Source: a bacterium
GTDB lineage: Bacteria > UBP15 > UBA6099 > JAJRTR01
Direction: 5' to 3'
NCBI GenBank assembly: GCA_024278215.1
Contig: JAJRTR010000138.1
Coordinates: 62,001-126,000, forward strand
Length of the DNA stretch: 64,000 nucleotides
The translations under genes and the position numbers were made by a program. Of the stretch, positions 42,144 to 54,184 are shown in pieces; positions within the stretch are counted from its first letter, which is position 1; each line of letters opens with the position of its first letter. The notes under the pieces are model-generated. The model searched no databases, was not told the DNA's origin, and worked only from the letters and a program-made list of their open reading frames with translations.

Positions 42144-43640
42144 CTACCACAACTCGATCTTATCAATTCCCATTTTTTTAAATTCAGGAATGGATAAATG
42201 AAGGGTTTGCGCGTTGGCGTCACATATTTTCGCTTTGAGGATTATGTTCTGCGGCCCCAGGATGTTCAGAATATTGGAGATGCCCCTGACTGACTGGCTG
42301 AAACTGTTTTTTACACGTGTTACCCCGTCATGAATATGCGAAATATGGCTGTGCAGCGAAACGGATGCGCGGTCGAGCCCGGCATCCGCAGCTTCTCGGC
42401 AGAAAGTCCGATATGAAAACATCCTGCCGTTTGTGACAACACTTACCTGTTTATATCCGATTGATTTTGCGTAGCGTATGAAATGAAAGAAGTCCGGGTG
42501 TATCGCAGGCTCACCGCCCACAAGATTCAGAAAGTCCGCGCCGTTGACTCTGCCTTCGGAAATTTCCTTTTCCACCTCCGTCCGCGCAACAAAACTTCCG
42601 TCCATTTCGCCTGCCTCCGGACAAAACACGCAACCGTTATTGCAGGTCCCGGATATGCGCACACTAACTGTCTGGCCGGTCGGCCGGGCATCATGCGCCG
42701 GTCTGCCGAGAGGAGGCTCACCCTGTGGCGTTCCGGGCACACTCGCAACATCGTTTTTTACAGGTGTGAGTTCTCCCACGCCATATATGTCCGCATAAGC
42801 TTTCCATACGCCGTAGCAGATCGGATCGTGAATACATTCGCTGCACACGCTGCTCTTGGTCTTATGCGCGCCGGATGTTTCGATGATGATATTGTGATCG
42901 GATTTCGAAAGTTGACCCTCTGTGCCTCTGATGAATTCGGAGCAAGCGAATTCAACACCGCCCATGAAACATGCAGGAACGCCGCAGTCGGGGTTGAATG
43001 ATGTTATGCCTCTGTCGCGGCAAACTGTGTGCGCCTCGACAAGCAGCGGCGCAATTTCGGAATATCGTGGAACGATCCACGGATTCGCCCGGGCGCGTCC
43101 GTCGGGATTCGCGACGGATATAGTGACAGCTTTCACGAAAGGCAGTCGTTCCGACACGAATTCAATATAATCCGGAAGCCGCCGGAAGTTGAAAGCGTTG
43201 ACAACGATATTGAGGCTGACGGGAACCCCGGCGGCATCTATCGCATGTATACCTTCTATAGTCTGCGCCCAGGCGCCACGAGTCTGTGTAAGGAAGTCGG
43301 AAAGTGCAGCCGTATGCGCGTGCAGGGCGACCAGCACATCGGTAAAACCGTTGTCTTTCATACGACCGGCCATTCCTTTTTTCCGGAAAGCCATTGCGTT
43401 TGTCTGGAGAGAAATAGTCTCGAAATTTCCTGACTCCGCCGCATAGGACGACAACTCGAAAAGACCTTTGTGAAGAGAAGGCTCACCACCGCTGAATGTT
43501 ATCGCCGGCGTCGACTGCTCCGCAATTTCATCTATCTCTCTGCGTACTTCCCCGACCGATCGATCAGGCATATCTAAAAGCCTCGAACAGAAAAGGCACT
43601 TCTGGTTGCAACGACCTGTCAGGAGGATAACTTTATGCAT
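42144..43640 (-). CDS. Tandem radical SAM protein with SPASM-like middle
   Basis: A 498-residue protein holding two complete radical SAM modules. Module 1 has Cys11, Cys15, Cys18 (CNQKCLFC) and GGEP at 51-54. Module 2 has Cys333, Cys337, Cys340 (CNNGCVFC) and GGEP at 375-378. Between them are extra cysteines (219, 224, 233 and CSECIHDPIC at 266-275), which look like SPASM/twitch auxiliary cluster ligands. A Pro/Gly-rich linker (about 295-325) joins the halves. No precursor peptide gene was recognised nearby, so the substrate is unknown. No clear ribosome site at the ATG. Confidence 0.87.
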   Translation of the reverse strand: MHKVILLTGRCNQKCLFCSRLLDMPDRSVGEVRREIDEIAEQSTPAITFSGGEPSLHKGLFELSSYAAESGNFETISLQTNAMAFRKKGMAGRMKDNGFTDVLVALHAHTAALSDFLTQTRGAWAQTIEGIHAIDAAGVPVSLNIVVNAFNFRRLPDYIEFVSERLPFVKAVTISVANPDGRARANPWIVPRYSEIAPLLVEAHTVCRDRGITSFNPDCGVPACFMGGVEFACSEFIRGTEGQLSKSDHNIIIETSGAHKTKSSVCSECIHDPICYGVWKAYADIYGVGELTPVKNDVASVPGTPQGEPPLGRPAHDARPTGQTVSVRISGTCNNGCVFCPEAGEMDGSFVARTEVEKEISEGRVNGADFLNLVGGEPAIHPDFFHFIRYAKSIGYKQVSVVTNGRMFSYRTFCREAADAGLDRASVSLHSHISHIHDGVTRVKNSFSQSVRGISNILNILGPQNIILKAKICDANAQTLHLSIPEFKKMGIDKIELW

Positions 43641-45668: not shown

Positions 45669-45728
45669 ACCGGCGGCTTACTTGCTGGAGGAAACCGGCG
45701 GCACAGGCGAAAGCTGTTGCCCGGCGAG

Positions 45729-47192
45729 ATGAAAGTATTACTTCTCAACCCACCTTATTCGCGTTTGCGCAACACCAAGGAAAGATCGGAGATGGTGCCG
45801 CCGCTGGCATTGCCGTATATCGCTGCCTCGGTCGCCGCCGCCGGCCACGATGTTACAATCCACGATGCGAACTACAACCCGGCAGAACGACTTGCCGCTA
45901 TCGACGAAGGCGCAAGTCTGCTCGATAAATTCCACAAATATCACGGCAGCCTCGATTCGGGCACCCACCCCGTGTGGGACGAATGCAGAGCGCTGATACG
46001 CACGCTGGAGCCGGACATTGTCGGCCTCACCGTGCTCAGCCCCGTTCGCAACTCCGCGCTGAGACTCGCGGAAATATGCAGGGAAGTCAACCCGGATATT
46101 AAAGTGATACTCGGCGGCTATCACCCCACGGTATGCCCCGAAGATGTGCTGGGTAACGATGCGGTGGACGCGGCGGTGCGCGGCGAAGGCGAGATCACTT
46201 TCACTGAAATAGTCGGCAGGCTTTCAGCCGGTGGCGGCTTCGACGACATCGACGGCGTGTCCTTCAGGCGCGGCGCGGAGATCGTCCATAACCCTGACCG
46301 CGACCTTGTGAAAGACATCGACACACTTCCCTCGGCCGCCGACTTTATCTCCGGTTGCGAAACAGGCAAGGCGGCACTGCACTTCGCGCGCGGATGTCCC
46401 TATGCCTGCAAGTTCTGCGCCGACTCCACGATGTGGCGCAGAAAACCCCGCTTCCATTCCGCGGAACGCATGGTCGGCGACATCGAGACTGTCGTCGACA
46501 AACTCGGCGTCCGCGAATTTACTTTTGTCGACGGCACATTCAACCTTAACCGTCGCCGCGTGATGGAACTGTGCCGGATGATAGTCGACCGAAAAATCCA
46601 CATCCGCTGGGACGCGCTTGTGCGAGCCGACAGCCTGGACGAAGAACTGGTTGCTTTATGCCGACGCGCCGGCTGCTCGCAAATGAATCTCGGCGTCGAA
46701 TCCGGCAGCCAGTATGTTATCGACAAACTCAACAAGAAGACCGATCTCGACACCATCGAAGACGACATAAAGATTATCAGGAAGAACCATATAGCGAGCG
46801 TTTCCTTTTTCTGCGTGGGAATGCCGCCGGAGCGGAAGGAAGACCTTCGCGCGTCAAGGGACCTGATACTAAAGCTGAAACACGATTATGTGATTATGAA
46901 TATTTTCACACCGTTCCGCGGCACAGCCTTTTACGACGAACTTGTAAGCTGCGGCTTCCTCGACGATAGCCATGATTACGATTCCTACGGATACAAAGCG
47001 CCTACGAACCATTTCGTGCCCGGCCTGACACAGGAAGAGTATGATGAATTGAGAGATGAGATCGTGCAGGCTGTCGACCTCGTCAACAAAAGAGGCAAGC
47101 TACCGCTGAAGTTGCTTTTCTACAACTTCGGCTTCTATGCCCGCTATCCCGGCCAGTTGTGGAAACGCCTCAGGAGCCTCCTCGGGTTTTAA
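45729..47192 (+). CDS. B12-binding domain radical SAM protein
   Basis: A 487-residue protein. The N-terminal cobalamin-binding-like domain (MKVLLLNPPYSR, then ILGGYHPTVCPEDVL near 125-140) is followed by a radical SAM domain with CPYACKFC near 218-225 and a GVESGSQYVIDKLNK stretch near 320-335. Such proteins methylate or rearrange lipids, hopanoids or natural products. The ATG at 45729 was taken rather than the TTG at 45717. Directly after the stop a hairpin GCCGC/GCGGC (47193-47215) resembles the stop-proximal family. Confidence 0.88.
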   Translation: MKVLLLNPPYSRLRNTKERSEMVPPLALPYIAASVAAAGHDVTIHDANYNPAERLAAIDEGASLLDKFHKYHGSLDSGTHPVWDECRALIRTLEPDIVGLTVLSPVRNSALRLAEICREVNPDIKVILGGYHPTVCPEDVLGNDAVDAAVRGEGEITFTEIVGRLSAGGGFDDIDGVSFRRGAEIVHNPDRDLVKDIDTLPSAADFISGCETGKAALHFARGCPYACKFCADSTMWRRKPRFHSAERMVGDIETVVDKLGVREFTFVDGTFNLNRRRVMELCRMIVDRKIHIRWDALVRADSLDEELVALCRRAGCSQMNLGVESGSQYVIDKLNKKTDLDTIEDDIKIIRKNHIASVSFFCVGMPPERKEDLRASRDLILKLKHDYVIMNIFTPFRGTAFYDELVSCGFLDDSHDYDSYGYKAPTNHFVPGLTQEEYDELRDEIVQAVDLVNKRGKLPLKLLFYNFGFYARYPGQLWKRLRSLLGF

Positions 47193-47241: not shown

Positions 47242-48570
47242 TCACTTCAACTTGTAGAGATCATTGAGATATTCGACAGCAAGTTCTTTAGCGAGTGAGC
47301 GGTCTTCCATAGTCGCCATCATTCCATACATGGCGGCTTCCTGCGAAACGTTCGACGCATCTACGTCCCGGACCGCATCGACAGCCTCCGCGAGTTCAGC
47401 CAGGAACTCGTCGGCGACATTTTCGTGGAACGGCGAGACCGTCACATGAAGACTGGGGGGCAGGTGCTGTTTTTCTATCATCCAGCCGCGTTTGTGGAGT
47501 TCGTCCGAGAGGGCGTAGACATTGATCGTATCGCTCTTCATACTGAAAACCGTCGCGTGTGGTTCGCCGATGACGTCGAGGCCGTCGATGGCGCGCACTC
47601 CGGCAATGAGTTTCTTTGTCGTGTCCATCGCTTTCCGGGCGAGTTCGAGATAGCCGTTTTCGCCGACATAGCGGAGCACAGTCCATGCGCCTGCGATGGG
47701 GCCGCCCGTGCGCGCGCCGGAAACAGTGGACGTGCCGTAGACGCCTCCGGGGAAATCGGCGAAAGCGAAATACTGGAAGTAACGGTAACCGCTGTTGCGG
47801 TAAAGCACCGTGGAAGCGCCCTTGGGCGTAAATCCGTATTTGTGGAGGTCCGCGGACATCGAAGTGACACCCGGCACACTGAAGTCGAAGTCGGGCACGG
47901 GATAGCCCAGTTTTTTTACGAACGGCAGTATCAGGCCGCCGAGACACGAATCAACATGGAACCAGATGTCTTTCTCCGCCGCCGCCGCCGCGAGCTCCTC
48001 GATAGGGTCGACCATGCCGTGCGGATATGTCATGGCCGAGCCGACCATCATAATCGTGTTTTCGGTAATCGCGTTTTTTATTCCCTCGACATCCGCGCGG
48101 TAGTCGTCGCCGACCGGCACATGAATGATACTCAGCCCTAGGTAATGGGCTGATTTGTCGAAAGCGGGATGTGTTGTTGTAGACGTAATTATTTCCGGTG
48201 CACAGATGCCGGGCTTGATTTTGCGAGCCCGGTCGCGCGCGGTTTTAGTTGCCATAAAGATACTTTCCGTGCCGCCGCTTGTCATGCTGCCTACTACGTT
48301 TTCGTCGCCGCCCAGAATGCCTGCAACCATTGACACAACTTCCGTCTCCATCTTCAGCAGGCTCGGAAACGCCATCGGGCTGAGGCCGTTTTCGAGTATG
48401 AACTTCCCGTAAGCCTCGTTGCCCACCCGCATGAGCTCTTCTCCCGCATTGTATATAAGACTGAAGGAGCGGCCCCGTTTCCAGTCGAGGTCGCTTTCCT
48501 TTATCCTGTCGAGTTCGGCCATAAGTTCTTGTTCGGGCACCCCGGTTTCGGGCAGTTTTTCCTGTTTCAT
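47242..48570 (-). CDS. PLP-dependent decarboxylase/lyase (group II, sphingosine-1-phosphate-lyase-like)
   Basis: A 442-residue fold-type I PLP enzyme. TSGGTESIFMATKTARD near 104-120 binds the phosphate, HVDSCLGGL near 203-211 stacks on PLP, and SADLHKYGFTPKG near 236-248 holds the Schiff-base Lys. The overall pattern is closest to sphingosine-1-phosphate lyase and archaeal-type L-tyrosine/aspartate decarboxylases. The N-terminal FILENGLSPMAFPSLLKME fits this group. GGAGGAG precedes the ATG. Divergent from the GbsR-type regulator. Confidence 0.88.
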   Translation of the reverse strand: MKQEKLPETGVPEQELMAELDRIKESDLDWKRGRSFSLIYNAGEELMRVGNEAYGKFILENGLSPMAFPSLLKMETEVVSMVAGILGGDENVVGSMTSGGTESIFMATKTARDRARKIKPGICAPEIITSTTTHPAFDKSAHYLGLSIIHVPVGDDYRADVEGIKNAITENTIMMVGSAMTYPHGMVDPIEELAAAAAEKDIWFHVDSCLGGLILPFVKKLGYPVPDFDFSVPGVTSMSADLHKYGFTPKGASTVLYRNSGYRYFQYFAFADFPGGVYGTSTVSGARTGGPIAGAWTVLRYVGENGYLELARKAMDTTKKLIAGVRAIDGLDVIGEPHATVFSMKSDTINVYALSDELHKRGWMIEKQHLPPSLHVTVSPFHENVADEFLAELAEAVDAVRDVDASNVSQEAAMYGMMATMEDRSLAKELAVEYLNDLYKLK

Positions 48571-48756
48571 CGTGCTCCTCCGTAAGATGTATTCTTTATA
48601 CCTTAATCGGCTGAGCCTGAAATCGCAATGTTTAAGGTTTTCGTTCGGGCGCGGACGAATAATCGAAAGGAATAGTTCACAATATTCAATACTTCATGAA
48701 CTTTTGAATATATTGAATCACTCGGTTATAATCACGTCATGGTGGAGGTGTTTCAA

Positions 48757-49386
48757 ATGGATGAGGAATTAAGCGCGCGTGCTATTGAAGAGGAAGACAG
48801 GATATTGCAGGCCGTGGAGGATGTGATAGATTTCTGGGGTTTCAAGGGGATACACGGAAGGGTGTGGGGGATGTTGTATCTCGCGACGGAACCGATGACG
48901 ATGGACGAAATCGGAGAGCGGCTGGATTTGAGCGCGGGCGCGGTGAGTATGGCCTTGAAGGAACTCCGGCAGATCGGCGTGGTGGCAAGGGTGAAAAAAC
49001 GCAGCGACAGAAAAACACACTATATAGCCGAGACGGATTTCATGAAGATGATCACGGGGATTCTCGAGGACAGGGAAAAGAGGATCGTGAATACCGCCAC
49101 AGACAGAATTCGCGAAAGCGCCGATGGGTTGAATAAACTGTCGCGGGAAGCCGGGGGCGCAAGCAAAAAGGAGTTGAAGCAGAAGGTGGAAAAAGCGCGT
49201 AAACTCGAACTGCTCGGACTCAGCATATTTGCGCTGATAGAGTCTGTCGCGAAGCTGCGGAATGTGGATTCCGGCGCGTTGCGCGACCTGTCGAGACTTG
49301 CGGGTACGCTTGTTGAAACTCCCGAGCGGAAATTGAAACGGCTCACTAAAAAATGGAAGAACGACTGGAACAGATTGATCTCATAG
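48757..49386 (+). CDS. GbsR/MarR-type transcriptional regulator
   Basis: A 209-residue regulator. The winged helix spans about 20-95: FKGIHGRVWGMLYLATEPMT, then EIGERLDLSAGAVSMALKELRQIGVV as helix-turn-helix and VKKRSDRKTHYIAE as wing. A long helical C-terminus follows (dimerisation). This is the GbsR pattern. GGAGGTG lies 7 bases before the chosen ATG. It is directly upstream of the isoprenoid operon on the same strand, 78 bases away, and divergent from the PLP enzyme; it may control either. Confidence 0.85.
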   Translation: MDEELSARAIEEEDRILQAVEDVIDFWGFKGIHGRVWGMLYLATEPMTMDEIGERLDLSAGAVSMALKELRQIGVVARVKKRSDRKTHYIAETDFMKMITGILEDREKRIVNTATDRIRESADGLNKLSREAGGASKKELKQKVEKARKLELLGLSIFALIESVAKLRNVDSGALRDLSRLAGTLVETPERKLKRLTKKWKNDWNRLIS

Positions 49387-49464
49387 ATGTCGGAATATTA
49401 ATAGATAATTCATGCCGGGCGACAGTGATTTGTGATTTGTTCAAAAGCGGGAATCGAGGGTTCA

Positions 49465-50436
49465 ATGCATGAAAATATTGCGGCTGATATGCGGATAGCA
49501 GCAGACAAGCTCAATGATGAAGGCTGTATACGTAATGTCGAGAGTATAAACGGCGCAGAAAGCATAATCCCGGACGGAGGCAAGCTTCTCAGGCCGCGCC
49601 TCGTTGTGACAACGGCCAGACTCTGTGGATACTGCGGGACGAAGCATACGGATTGCGCTGTTGCTGTCGAGCTACTCCATAATTCGACGCTTTTCCATGA
49701 TGATGTAATCGACTCTGCGACGGTGAGAAGGGGGAAACCCTCGATCAACGCGAGATATGGAAATGAGGTTGCGATACTCGCGGGAGATCATTTTATCGCG
49801 AGGTCGATGAACATTGCGTCTCTGACCGGCAATCCTGTAATCGTAGAGATAATATCGAAGTGTCTCGAAGAACTCGTCTTCGGACAATTGAGGGAAATGG
49901 ACCTGGACTATCGGCTGGAATGCAGCGTGGATGAGTACTACGAGGTAATAGAAAACAAGACAGCCGCGCTCGTGAAGGCATGTGTGCTGGTCGGCGCACG
50001 CGTGGCGGGCGCAGGCAAAGATACCATAAAACTGCTCGTCGATATAGCGCTCGGAGCAGGCAGGCTTTTCCAGATTGCGGACGATGTCATCGACTACCTG
50101 TGCGATGAATCCGTCACGGGAAAACGCAGATTCCAGGACATTCGTGAAGGCAAGATGACTCTGCCTGCAATTATCCTGCTCGAGAAATGCGGTCTGGACG
50201 AAAGAAGACTTTTCGCGTCGAAACTGGGGAAAGAAAAACTTTCAGACGAAGAGGGGCTGGAGATACTTGCTCTGATGGAAAAACACGAGGTGTTCGGGGA
50301 CATAAGAAAAGATTATGAAGAGCAGCACGGCAGGTTGCGAGCGCATTTAAAAGATGTTAGTGATAATGAATACAGTCACGATTTCAAAGAACTGGTCGAG
50401 TTGATAGTCGGCAGGCTGTATGGCTGTATGGAATAG
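49465..50436 (+). CDS. Trans-prenyl diphosphate synthase (polyprenyl synthetase)
   Basis: A 323-residue IspA/IspB-like enzyme that condenses IPP with allylic diphosphates. The first aspartate-rich motif is HDDVID in STLFHDDVIDSATVRRG and the second is FQIADDVIDY, both DDxxD. The region before the first motif (VELLHNSTLF) has no bulky aromatic pair at positions -4/-5, suggesting a long-chain product (weak inference). ATG 49465 has GAGGG just ahead; a GTG at 49432 is the alternative. First gene of an operon with UppS-DXS and IPP isomerase. Confidence 0.9.
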   Translation: MHENIAADMRIAADKLNDEGCIRNVESINGAESIIPDGGKLLRPRLVVTTARLCGYCGTKHTDCAVAVELLHNSTLFHDDVIDSATVRRGKPSINARYGNEVAILAGDHFIARSMNIASLTGNPVIVEIISKCLEELVFGQLREMDLDYRLECSVDEYYEVIENKTAALVKACVLVGARVAGAGKDTIKLLVDIALGAGRLFQIADDVIDYLCDESVTGKRRFQDIREGKMTLPAIILLEKCGLDERRLFASKLGKEKLSDEEGLEILALMEKHEVFGDIRKDYEEQHGRLRAHLKDVSDNEYSHDFKELVELIVGRLYGCME

Positions 50437-50474: not shown

Positions 50475-50493
50475 GATATAAAGGAGTTGTCAA

Positions 50494-53148
50494 ATGAAGG
50501 AGCAAGGGATCAAGGATTTGTTGGACCACAGCGACGCGCTGCCTGCTCACATTGCAATCATTATGGACGGAAACGGCAGGTGGGCACAGGAGAGGGGACT
50601 GCCGCGCTCTGCCGGTCACAAAGCCGGAGCGGAGCGAGTGAGGCCGGTCATCGAATTGTGCAGTGAGCTTGTAATAGAGACACTTACGATGTTCGCTTTC
50701 TCGACGGAAAACTGGCAGCGCCCGGAGGCGGAAGTGTCCGGGATTATGAAACTGCTGGGAATGTTTCTAGACCGGGAAGTCGAAAGCCTGAAAAAGAACG
50801 GCATCCGCTTGCGTTTCCCGGGCAGCCCGGACAGGATGTCGCCGGTGTTGAGAGAAAAAATGAGGAAGGCTGAGGAAATCACTTCCGTGGATTATAAGAC
50901 GACTCTCAATATCTGTGTTAATTACGGTGGTCGCGACGAAATACTGATGGCGATAAAAAGAATAATGAAGAGCCGGCGGGATGAAGGTCTGGAAGCAGAG
51001 AGTTTCGAGTTGGACGATATTTCACAATACCTTTATACGGCAGGTATGCCGGACCCCGACATCCTTATCAGGACGGGCGGCGACAATCGTATCAGCAATT
51101 TCCTTCTGTGGCAGATCGCGTACTCCGAGATATTCTTTCACCCGAAATACTGGCCCGACTTCGGCCCCGGCGACCTTGTGGAATGTATAAATGACTACAT
51201 TGCAAGAGAGCGAAGATTCGGCAGGATCGAGGAGAGCGGCGAAACACTCCTTTCGACAATCGACAGTCCTGAGGATGTGAAGAAACTGCCTGCCGACAGG
51301 CTCGACGAACTGGCCGCGGAGGTAAGGGATACGATTATTTCCAGGGTGTCGTCGATCGGCGGGCATCTCGCGTCGAATCTCGGTATTGTCGAGTTGACTA
51401 TAGCGCTGCATCGGGTTTTCGATTCGCCGCGCGACAAATTCGTCTGGGATGTCGGCCACCAGTGTTATCCGCACAAACTTCTCACAGGCCGTTACAGGGA
51501 TTTCGCGACATTGCGCACACGCAATGGCATCAGCGGATTCCCTAAAAGAGGCGAGAGCGAGCACGACTGCTTCGACACGGGGCACGGCAGCACGTCGCTG
51601 TCCGCGGCGCTCGGGCTGTCGGTAGGCCGCGACCTGAAAAATGAGGACTCGCATGTGATCGGCATCTGCGGCGACGGCGCTATGTCCGGCGGCATGATTT
51701 TCGAGGCGCTCAATCACGCGGGTGAACTGAGCAGGAATATAATCGTGATTCTTAATGACAATTCGTTCTCCATTTCACCGGTGACCGGCGCGCTCGGGCG
51801 CTCCCTGAGCAAGCTGCGGACCAGCGCCCACTATGTGCGACTCCACCAGACGATGGAAAATCTGAAGGAAAAACCTTCGGGCATATTTAAAGCGCTCAGC
51901 CTCATTACTTCTCCGTTCAGGTCGCTCGGAAAGTATCTCGCTTTCAGGGAGAACATCATTTTCGAGGAACTTGGTTTTCAATATGTCGGCCCCATAGACG
52001 GGCATGATATACAGGCAATGTGCGCGGTGCTGGAGAATGTGAAGAAAATCAAAGGACCGGTTCTCGTGCATGTCCTCACGAAAAAAGGCAAGGGCTATGT
52101 GCCCGCCGAATGCGACCCTGCAAGTTACCACGGGATAAATAAGCTATCCGCTGTGAAAAAAGAGAAAGTCGATATACGCCCCGCTGTCACCTATACGCAC
52201 GCATTTTCCGCATGTATGAAAAAGCTGTGCAAAAAAGATGACCGTGTCATGGGCATAACCGCGGCGATGCCGGGCGGGACCGGCCTGGAGAAACTGATCG
52301 AAGAGTACCCTGAAAGATTTTTCGATGTCGGCATGGCCGAGCAACATGCGGTGACATTCGCGGCCGGGCTCGCCGTGCAGGGTTTCAGACCCGTCGTAGC
52401 GATATATTCGACCTTCCTGCAGAGGGCATACGACCAGATATTCCACGACGTATGCCTGCAGGACCTGCCGGTAATATTCGCTGTCGACAGGGCCGGCCTC
52501 GTAAGCAGATATGGACAGACCCACCAGGGCATCATGGATATTGCATATATGAGACACCTGCCGAATATCCAGTTGCTTGCCCCGAGAGATACGGTCGAAC
52601 TCGAAGCCATGATGGAGTATGCGCTGACGCAGGACCATCCGTTGGCTGTCAGGTATCCTTCCGGCGCGGATGCCGGGCCGATAAAAACAGGTGCCCGCGC
52701 GCCGATAGAACATGCGACGGCGGAACTGCTCAAAAACGGCAAGGACGCCGCTGTATGGGCTGTCGGCCCGATGGCTATGCACGCTCTGAAGGCGGCGCGC
52801 GCGTTGCAGAAGCAGGGGCTGGACGTGCGTGTTCTGAATGCAAGATTCGTGCATCCCATGGATGAAACAACATTGCTCAAAGCCTATGAGGACGGCATAA
52901 GAAGATTCTTTACAGTTGAAGACCACCTGCTTTCATCCGGGTTCGGAAGCCTGTTCCTGGACAGGGCGAACGCGCTGGGGCTCGACCTTCTCAACGTGGT
53001 GCGCATAGGCGTGGAGCACAGCTATATTCCTGACGACAGCCGTGACAACCTCCTTGCCGACTTCGGCCTCGACAGCGCTTCGATTGAACAAAAAATCCTG
53101 GAGACGATGACGAATGCGCAAACCGGAAAAGTTAAATCCGGAAGGTGA
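50494..53148 (+). CDS. UppS-DXS fusion: cis-prenyltransferase joined to 1-deoxy-D-xylulose-5-phosphate synthase
   Basis: One 884-residue reading frame joins two complete enzymes. Residues 1-248 are undecaprenyl diphosphate synthase: IIMDGNGRWA with catalytic Asp25, FAFSTENW, LIRTGGDNRISNF and the end signature ERRFGR (239-244). Residues about 250-884 are DXS: IDSPEDVKKLPADRLDELA, GGHLASNLG, DVGHQCYPHK, the ThDP motif GDG (Asp394) to NDN (421-423), and Glu616 in MAEQHAV, the cofactor-activating Glu. No stop, internal ribosome site or long linker divides them. DXS makes the first MEP-pathway intermediate; UppS makes the lipid carrier for cell-wall synthesis. AAGGAG precedes the ATG; the next gene is IPP isomerase. 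Confidence 0.95.
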   Translation: MKEQGIKDLLDHSDALPAHIAIIMDGNGRWAQERGLPRSAGHKAGAERVRPVIELCSELVIETLTMFAFSTENWQRPEAEVSGIMKLLGMFLDREVESLKKNGIRLRFPGSPDRMSPVLREKMRKAEEITSVDYKTTLNICVNYGGRDEILMAIKRIMKSRRDEGLEAESFELDDISQYLYTAGMPDPDILIRTGGDNRISNFLLWQIAYSEIFFHPKYWPDFGPGDLVECINDYIARERRFGRIEESGETLLSTIDSPEDVKKLPADRLDELAAEVRDTIISRVSSIGGHLASNLGIVELTIALHRVFDSPRDKFVWDVGHQCYPHKLLTGRYRDFATLRTRNGISGFPKRGESEHDCFDTGHGSTSLSAALGLSVGRDLKNEDSHVIGICGDGAMSGGMIFEALNHAGELSRNIIVILNDNSFSISPVTGALGRSLSKLRTSAHYVRLHQTMENLKEKPSGIFKALSLITSPFRSLGKYLAFRENIIFEELGFQYVGPIDGHDIQAMCAVLENVKKIKGPVLVHVLTKKGKGYVPAECDPASYHGINKLSAVKKEKVDIRPAVTYTHAFSACMKKLCKKDDRVMGITAAMPGGTGLEKLIEEYPERFFDVGMAEQHAVTFAAGLAVQGFRPVVAIYSTFLQRAYDQIFHDVCLQDLPVIFAVDRAGLVSRYGQTHQGIMDIAYMRHLPNIQLLAPRDTVELEAMMEYALTQDHPLAVRYPSGADAGPIKTGARAPIEHATAELLKNGKDAAVWAVGPMAMHALKAARALQKQGLDVRVLNARFVHPMDETTLLKAYEDGIRRFFTVEDHLLSSGFGSLFLDRANALGLDLLNVVRIGVEHSYIPDDSRDNLLADFGLDSASIEQKILETMTNAQTGKVKSGR

Positions 53149-53155
53149 AGGAGCC

Positions 53156-54184
53156 ATGCCTGAAGACAAAAACATATCGAAACGTAAGATCGAGCATCTG
53201 AACGCGGCGCTCGATTATTATGACAAAAGCAAAGTGAACAGTTTCGATAATTATTATATGGTTCACAACGCGCTGCCCGGGATTGAGCTTGCGGATGTGG
53301 ATTCATCGTGCGATTTTCTCGGACGCATAATATCGGCGCCGATAATGATAGGAAGTCTGACGGGCGGACCTGAGCGCGCCGGCGAAATAAACCGCAACCT
53401 CGCCATTGCCGCGCAGAACGCCGGTATTGCGCTTGCGCTCGGTTCGGCGAAGATCGCATTTATAAAAGAAAAAGCCGCCGCGTCGTTTCAGGTGCGTGAC
53501 TTGTGCCCCGATGTCCCCCTGTTGATGAACCTCGGACTCGTCGATCTTGGCGCGTGTTTCTCGACAGACGATTGCCGCTCACTGATGGAACGCACGGAGG
53601 CCGACGCGCTTATCTTCCATATGAATCCGCTTCACGAAGCCATGCAGGCCGAAGGGAACACAGATTTCAAGGGTTTAGCGAACAGGCTTCGGAAAGCAGT
53701 CGCGGAATTTGATTTCCCGGTAATCGTAAAAGAAGTCGGACACGGCATAAGCGCGGATGCTTTCGGTCGTCTGTCGGATGTGGGAGTATACGCAGTAGAT
53801 GTGGCGGGTCGGGGCGGCACGTCGTGGGGTTATATCGAAAGCAGCCGTTCGACGGACGCTGTCAGGCGTGCCGCGTGTCGCAGCTTCGTCGACTGGGGCA
53901 TACCAACTGCCGATATACTGGCGCGAATCGGTGGAGCAAAGACAGCAACGCGGCTCATCGCTTCGGGCGGAGTGCGAAACGGTATAGACGCGGCAAAATG
54001 TATATGTCTCGGTGCCGATTTAGCGGCTGCGGCGGGTGCGTTCCTGGAACCTGCGCTGGAAAGCCCCGTGGCGGTCGAAAACAAGATCAGACAATTTATC
54101 CTCGAATTCAGGATGGCGATGTTCGCGACCGGCTGCCTGCGCGTAAAGGACCTCAATCCGAACTTGATCAGGAAGAAGACTTGA
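53156..54184 (+). CDS. fni: Type 2 isopentenyl-diphosphate delta-isomerase
   Basis: A 342-residue FMN/NAD(P)H-dependent isomerase of IPP and DMAPP. APIMIGSLTGG near 57-67, LMNLGLVDLG, MNPLHEAMQAEGNTDF with the conserved PxHExxQxxG-like segment, KEVGHGIS and DVAGRGGTSW are all present. The ATG at 53156 has GAAGGAG just upstream. A frame from 53114 would overlap UppS-DXS by 35 bases. Only 7 bases separate it from that gene, so expression is probably coupled. Confidence 0.93.
   Translation: MPEDKNISKRKIEHLNAALDYYDKSKVNSFDNYYMVHNALPGIELADVDSSCDFLGRIISAPIMIGSLTGGPERAGEINRNLAIAAQNAGIALALGSAKIAFIKEKAAASFQVRDLCPDVPLLMNLGLVDLGACFSTDDCRSLMERTEADALIFHMNPLHEAMQAEGNTDFKGLANRLRKAVAEFDFPVIVKEVGHGISADAFGRLSDVGVYAVDVAGRGGTSWGYIESSRSTDAVRRAACRSFVDWGIPTADILARIGGAKTATRLIASGGVRNGIDAAKCICLGADLAAAAGAFLEPALESPVAVENKIRQFILEFRMAMFATGCLRVKDLNPNLIRKKT

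Follow-up and report, generated by a model that had tools for sequence, protein, structure and literature searches.

Does a bacterial gene that reads through from undecaprenyl diphosphate synthase (UppS) into DXS, the enzyme that controls flux into the MEP pathway, encode a genuine two-enzyme polypeptide, and what would such a protein do? The question is raised by a window of 64,000 nucleotides, the whole stretch of DNA analysed here (contig JAJRTR010000138.1 of GenBank assembly GCA_024278215.1, positions 62,001 to 126,000; GTDB lineage Bacteria; UBP15; UBA6099; JAJRTR01), to which all coordinates below refer.

A single reading frame for UppS and DXS

On the plus strand, an 884-codon single frame (50494-53148) encodes a complete UppS followed by a complete DXS, as seen from the ORF list and from profile matches. 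A single-frame fusion of these enzymes had been proposed in the initial annotation and is borne out: both domains are full-length, score above curated cut-offs and share one open frame with a good ribosome-binding site (RBS). The uppS-dxs gene is a genuine translational fusion, laid out as follows:

50494..53148, plus strand: UppS-DXS fusion gene (ORF, Pfam, NCBIfam)
50480..50486, plus strand: RBS of the fusion, AAAGGAG, 7 nt 5' of ATG 50494 (sequence)
50539..51222, plus strand: UppS domain, residues 16-243 (NCBIfam; alignment to E. coli UppS)
51250..53109, plus strand: DXS domain, residues 253-872 (Pfam, NCBIfam)

Pfam identifies Prenyltransf at residues 23-243 (268.6 bits) and, in the DXS half, DXP_synthase_N (253-529), Transket_pyr (565-722) and Transketolase_C (742-864). 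The curated uppS model TIGR00055 matches residues 16-243 over model positions 1-228 with 266.7 bits against a cut-off of 109.6, and the dxs model TIGR00204 matches residues 253-872 with 712 bits against a cut-off of 466. The halves could also be aligned, nearly end to end, with the chains of solved UppS (PDB identifier 1jp3) and DXS (PDB identifier 2o1s) structures.

Like E. coli UppS (TIGR00055; PDB identifier 1jp3), the N-terminal half has the whole domain and keeps every catalytic residue checked, the alignment showing equivalents of D26, N28, R30, R39, H43, S71, N74, W75, R77 and R194 and also of R200, S202 and E213. It differs from the E. coli enzyme in that its C-terminus continues straight into DXS and in that the tunnel residue L137 is replaced by Thr, so that the length of its product may differ. 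This half would be expected to use FPP and IPP for the synthesis of a cis-polyprenyl diphosphate carrier. For the protein as a whole, we consider it rather probable that a real fusion gives a two-enzyme polypeptide with fixed dosage, shared assembly and a rewired DXS pocket, and with no channelling between the halves.

The DXS half and its acceptor and gating site

The DXS half was compared with 104 DXS sequences, drawn from loci of 15 named phylum-level groups and from further genomes, using E. coli numbering. The following positions stand out:

52504..52512, plus strand: S671-R672-Y673 (AGC AGA TAT) for E. coli G425-A426-D427; the third position is Asp in 104/104 DXS
52660..52662, plus strand: S723 (TCC) for E. 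coli R478, a GAP-binding residue; Arg in 78/104 and Lys in 26/104 DXS
51766..51768, plus strand: F425 (TTC) for E. coli M183; Met in 101/104 DXS
52144..52146, plus strand: L551 (CTA) for E. coli F304 of the fork aromatic cluster; Phe or Tyr in 91/104 DXS

The three domains of E. coli DXS (PDB identifier 2o1s) are all present, but the fusion carries D427Y, R478S, M183F and F304L, and its DXS is joined at the N-terminus to UppS and has no start codon of its own. The earlier claim of a full set of key residues in both enzymes therefore stands for the catalytic residues of UppS, as judged by alignment, and falls for DXS, where D427 and R478 are lost and M183 and F304 also differ. Retained in the DXS half are H49, H80, R99, D152, N181, H299, E370, Y392, R398, R420 and H431, among which the ThDP/Mg-binding and catalytic set (H49, H80, D152, N181, E370, H299 and H431) is intact. 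The lactyl-ThDP gating network H431-D427-R99-H49-H299, on the other hand, is incomplete, D427 being Tyr673, and the usual Gly-X-Asp at positions 425-427 has become Ser-Arg-Tyr, which places a new Arg next to the lost Asp. Of the GAP-site arginines, R420 is retained as R666 and R478 is Ser723.

In E. coli DXS, the H431-D427-R99-H49-H299 network stabilises lactyl-ThDP, holding it until GAP arrives (PMC12633525). Network variants activate lactyl-ThDP without the GAP trigger (PMC11908136) and give a two-carbon product (PMC12633525), and F304L moves the enzyme to the open state (PMC12633525). R478 forms part of the GAP pocket, and EcR478A has a Km(GAP) of 1400 uM (PMC11019550). From this published work, both D427Y and R478S map to the acceptor/gating site. 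A base error at these sites is unlikely, since no Arg or Lys codon can be reached from the Ser723 codon TCC by fewer than two base changes, and both neighbours of position 427 are altered along with it. At the 128 alignment columns conserved to 90% or more, the fusion DXS deviates only a few times, and this, together with its conserved DXS make-up, argues against simple decay. With the changes clustered and the frame otherwise well conserved, a rewired acceptor/gating site appears more likely than a decayed one. Weak ligand gating and an altered GAP affinity or acceptor range would be expected of a site rewired by D427Y and R478S; as a guess, Arg672 beside Tyr673 might replace R478 in phosphate binding. 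Read from the sequence, the changes could equally mean a lost or a changed function.

UppS, DXS and a polyprenyl synthase are each encoded once in the source genome (4.55 Mb, 95% complete), within the operon of the fusion, and a Dxr is encoded on another contig. Separate complete uppS and dxs genes, whose presence elsewhere the initial annotation had seen as a challenge to the fusion, were not found: a genome-wide search of this 95%-complete genome gave no second uppS or dxs, and the fusion is the sole copy of each. The only other weak match to DXS, on contig C188 (L002), was rejected as a split transketolase. Split two-subunit transketolases are common in the phylum (G000:C188 = L002; L171-L178), and DXS-like matches there are otherwise confined to these and to full-length transketolases.

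The phylum sample comprised seven genomes including the source, the six relatives (G001-G006, same order) being 67-97% complete. MraY/WecA-type transferases, which use undecaprenyl phosphate, are encoded in all six relatives and Dxr in five (loci L121-L125, L153-L170), with ispE-like genes adjoining dxr in the relatives inspected; no Dxr was detected in G002, which has a gene that appears IspH-like from its sequence. DXS, UppS (PF01255), trans-polyprenyl synthase (PF00348) and type 2 isopentenyl-diphosphate isomerase (IDI2) were detected in none of the six relatives, and the PF01255 and PF00348 searches were positive in 14/14 named control genomes. The probability of this joint absence by chance is ~4e-6 as the product of one minus completeness, with gaps assumed independent; the absence may come from an assembly gap common to all six or from a true replacement. 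A contig break upstream of a decarboxylase gene, common to four relatives, was considered as the site of the missing operon and rejected, proving nothing because the contigs end within another conserved gene. With all four operon genes missing from the six relatives, these genomes offer no comparison for the fusion within the lineage. Bacteria with the MEP pathway yet no recognisable Dxs have been described (PMC10663253).

These observations bear on an alternative that we regard as unlikely though not negligible, namely, that the DXS half has given up DXP synthesis and has become a neofunctionalised or decaying ThDP enzyme, which might convert pyruvate to acetate, acetoin or another acyloin, or use a non-phosphorylated acceptor, DXP then coming from an undetected DXS or by a DXS-independent route. 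The loss of both D427 and the basic residue at R478, each present in 104/104 sequences, together with M183F and F304L, would suit such a change, as would the long branch of the fusion DXS (0.97 against a median end branch of 0.38), the Km(GAP) of EcR478A and the two-carbon product of network variants; five relatives have Dxr without a detectable DXS, and the MEP genomes without DXS cited above offer a precedent. However, the dxs equivalog model still scores 712 bits, the ThDP-binding and catalytic residues are retained, and the gene sits in an isoprenoid operon as the sole DXS of a Dxr-containing genome. A rewired DXP synthase is the reading followed below.

Possible consequences of joining UppS to DXS

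As the sole DXS-type ThDP enzyme, the C-terminal half would most likely supply DXP to Dxr, and the presence of Dxr indicates that the source organism probably uses the MEP pathway. The coupling to be expected from the fusion is a fixed one-to-one dosage and a shared dimeric assembly; the activity of both halves and their common assembly are predictions from sequence. UppS is a homodimer. DXS is a homodimer too (PMC11019550), and for this reason a UppS dimer would tether two DXS chains. IPP and DMAPP feedback-inhibit DXS (PMC4993486) and, according to a report by Di et al. 2022 as it is cited in PMC10904526, bind to the surface of the DXS dimer and split it into monomers. By holding two DXS chains together, the UppS dimer could blunt this dissociation. 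Substrate channelling between DXS and UppS is implausible, because UppS lies outside the MEP pathway and several enzymes away from DXS, which also makes the earlier description of fused 'first and last steps' a loose one.

Studies of ligand gating in DXS have until now relied on laboratory mutants (D427A, R478A and F304L); the fusion offers a DXS from nature, apparently its organism's sole copy, in which these very positions are altered. Should it be active, it would put to the test whether DXP synthesis in vivo requires gating, and its feedback by IPP and its sensitivity to inhibitors directed against the GAP-site arginines may differ. Through the UppS fusion, isoprenoid supply would be tied to the cell-wall carrier in a new manner. 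We are doubtful of a further proposal, in which the lineage's sole DXS, with its site rewired, works only within the UppS fusion, constitutively un-gated or differently fuelled, while the other members of its small phylum appear to enter the MEP pathway at Dxr, with no recognisable DXS.

Quite improbable, in our estimate, is that, as the initial annotation suggested, the fusion acts as a sensor of IPP demand, in which UppS lowers IPP near DXS and so relieves the IPP/DMAPP feedback during active wall synthesis. The direct joining of the two domains, the inhibition of DXS by IPP and DMAPP and its reported monomerisation by them would fit such a role, but small metabolites diffuse fast, so that depletion around a single enzyme would probably have little effect, and the junction has no sequence feature that hints at an allosteric link. 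Fixed dosage and shared assembly are the coupling we favour.

Probable operon and proposed origin of the junction

The fusion lies in a run of plus-strand genes with short gaps, comprising a MarR-like regulator, a trans-polyprenyl synthase, UppS-DXS and IDI2:

48704..48732, plus strand: sigma-70-like promoter TTGAAT-17-TATAAT, a 10/12 consensus match only, with 7 such sites against 4.5 expected in shuffles
48739..49386, plus strand: MarR/GbsR-like (CudC-like) regulator, first gene of the run (Pfam MarR_2 4.6e-7; NCBIfam CudC 5e-20, under the cut-off)
49432..50436, plus strand: trans-polyprenyl diphosphate synthase (PF00348), the genome's only copy (Pfam, NCBIfam, genome search)
53156..54184, plus strand: IDI2 (TIGR02151, 345 bits, above the cut-off), with a predicted start

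IDI2 starts 7 nt past the stop of the fusion, and its SD overlaps that stop. A terminator scan found no convincing terminator within the run and one weak plus-strand stem-loop, which lies inside IDI2; the four genes probably form a co-transcribed operon. As no more than an analogy, CrtR of Corynebacterium, also of the MarR type, senses GGPP and regulates the genes beside it (PMC7432914). At 109 other DXS loci, a polyprenyl synthase is found just upstream in 68 and IDI2 just downstream in three, and uppS adjoins dxs at one. Thus, the neighbours of the fusion are usual for dxs, and it is the insertion and fusion of uppS that are unusual.

The joint itself is short:

51223..51249, plus strand: junction RIEESGETL, residues 244-252 (sequence)
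51229..51234, plus strand: GAGGAG, probably a relic of the dxs RBS, 9 nt before codon 51244 (judged from sequence)
51244..51246, plus strand: ACA (Thr251), not a start codon, where a stand-alone DXS would be expected to begin (judged from sequence)

The joining stretch reads RRFG-RIEESGETL-LSTIDSPEDV, with ~9 residues from the end of UppS to the start of DXS. In the alignment, RRFG falls just short of the C-terminal end of E. coli UppS, and in the DXS loci compared, stand-alone enzymes start a few residues upstream of the equivalent of LSTIDSPEDV; the two enzymes are thus joined with almost nothing extra. The GAGGAG before the missing dxs start codon suggests a former two-gene junction, and we hypothesize that uppS and dxs were once neighbours in one isoprenoid operon and were joined when the stop of the first and the start codon of the second disappeared.

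GC content by codon position is uniform across the joint and both other frames contain stops there, which makes a frameshift join unlikely. A scan found no in-frame ATG, GTG or TTG between the end of UppS and GTG 51277, which already lies within the conserved DXS N-terminus, so that splitting the fusion into two ordinary genes would need both a new stop and a new start codon. A missed stop or frameshift was considered and found unlikely, the composition of the frame being continuous and the dxs start codon absent. That an assembly or base error merged two genes that the organism keeps separate is very improbable: the assembly is fragmented (207 contigs), the fusion is not confirmable from relatives and one substitution in a GAG or GAA codon of the junction could mask a stop, but a stop alone would not suffice with the dxs start also gone (ACA), more errors or an unusual start being needed, and the frame and its composition run on across the joint. 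The contig belongs to the lineage, as its decarboxylase (61-62% identical) and MgtE (58% identical) resemble proteins of same-order genomes.

The initial annotation's remark that this is not a standard architecture agrees with our searches, in which no second case and no paper on a UppS-DXS fusion were found. No other UppS-DXS fusion was seen among the best 80 of 591 loci in a scan of genome contigs, in the 109 DXS neighbourhoods, in 34 genomes of other families, in one further phylum (80 genomes, E <= 1e-190), in viral contigs or, at 80% query coverage, in plasmids. Long N-terminal open frames on some DXS were examined as candidate fusions and are not UppS. Judged from the genomes and loci searched here, the fusion is likely rare, though not necessarily unique. 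The only uppS-dxs neighbourhood among the 109 DXS loci is an unfused ispG-uppS-dxs cluster in a MAG labelled Parcubacteria (L023:5980-8741). As in the fusion, uppS lies directly 5' of dxs on the same strand, but the genes are separate, 167 bp apart, and the DXS motif is standard (GDDGATHHG). A known system, IspDF, is likewise a fusion of two isoprenoid enzymes at non-consecutive steps (PMC13001223); it joins two MEP steps, whereas here the entry enzyme of the pathway is joined to a downstream prenyltransferase.

Further genes of the window lie upstream of the operon. Divergent from it, a minus-strand gene (47242-48570) encodes an MfnA-like (tyrosine decarboxylase-like) PLP decarboxylase, which scores below the MfnA cut-off and has orthologues of 61-62% identity in four relatives. 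A 498-aa protein (42144-43640, minus strand) with radical SAM matches in its N- and C-terminal halves (HxsC4/HxsC-like) is apparently a tandem radical SAM protein. A B12-binding/radical SAM protein (45717-47192, plus strand) is nearest to BchE-type models, below their cut-offs, and dozens of B12-binding/radical SAM proteins are encoded on many contigs of the source genome and in its relatives.
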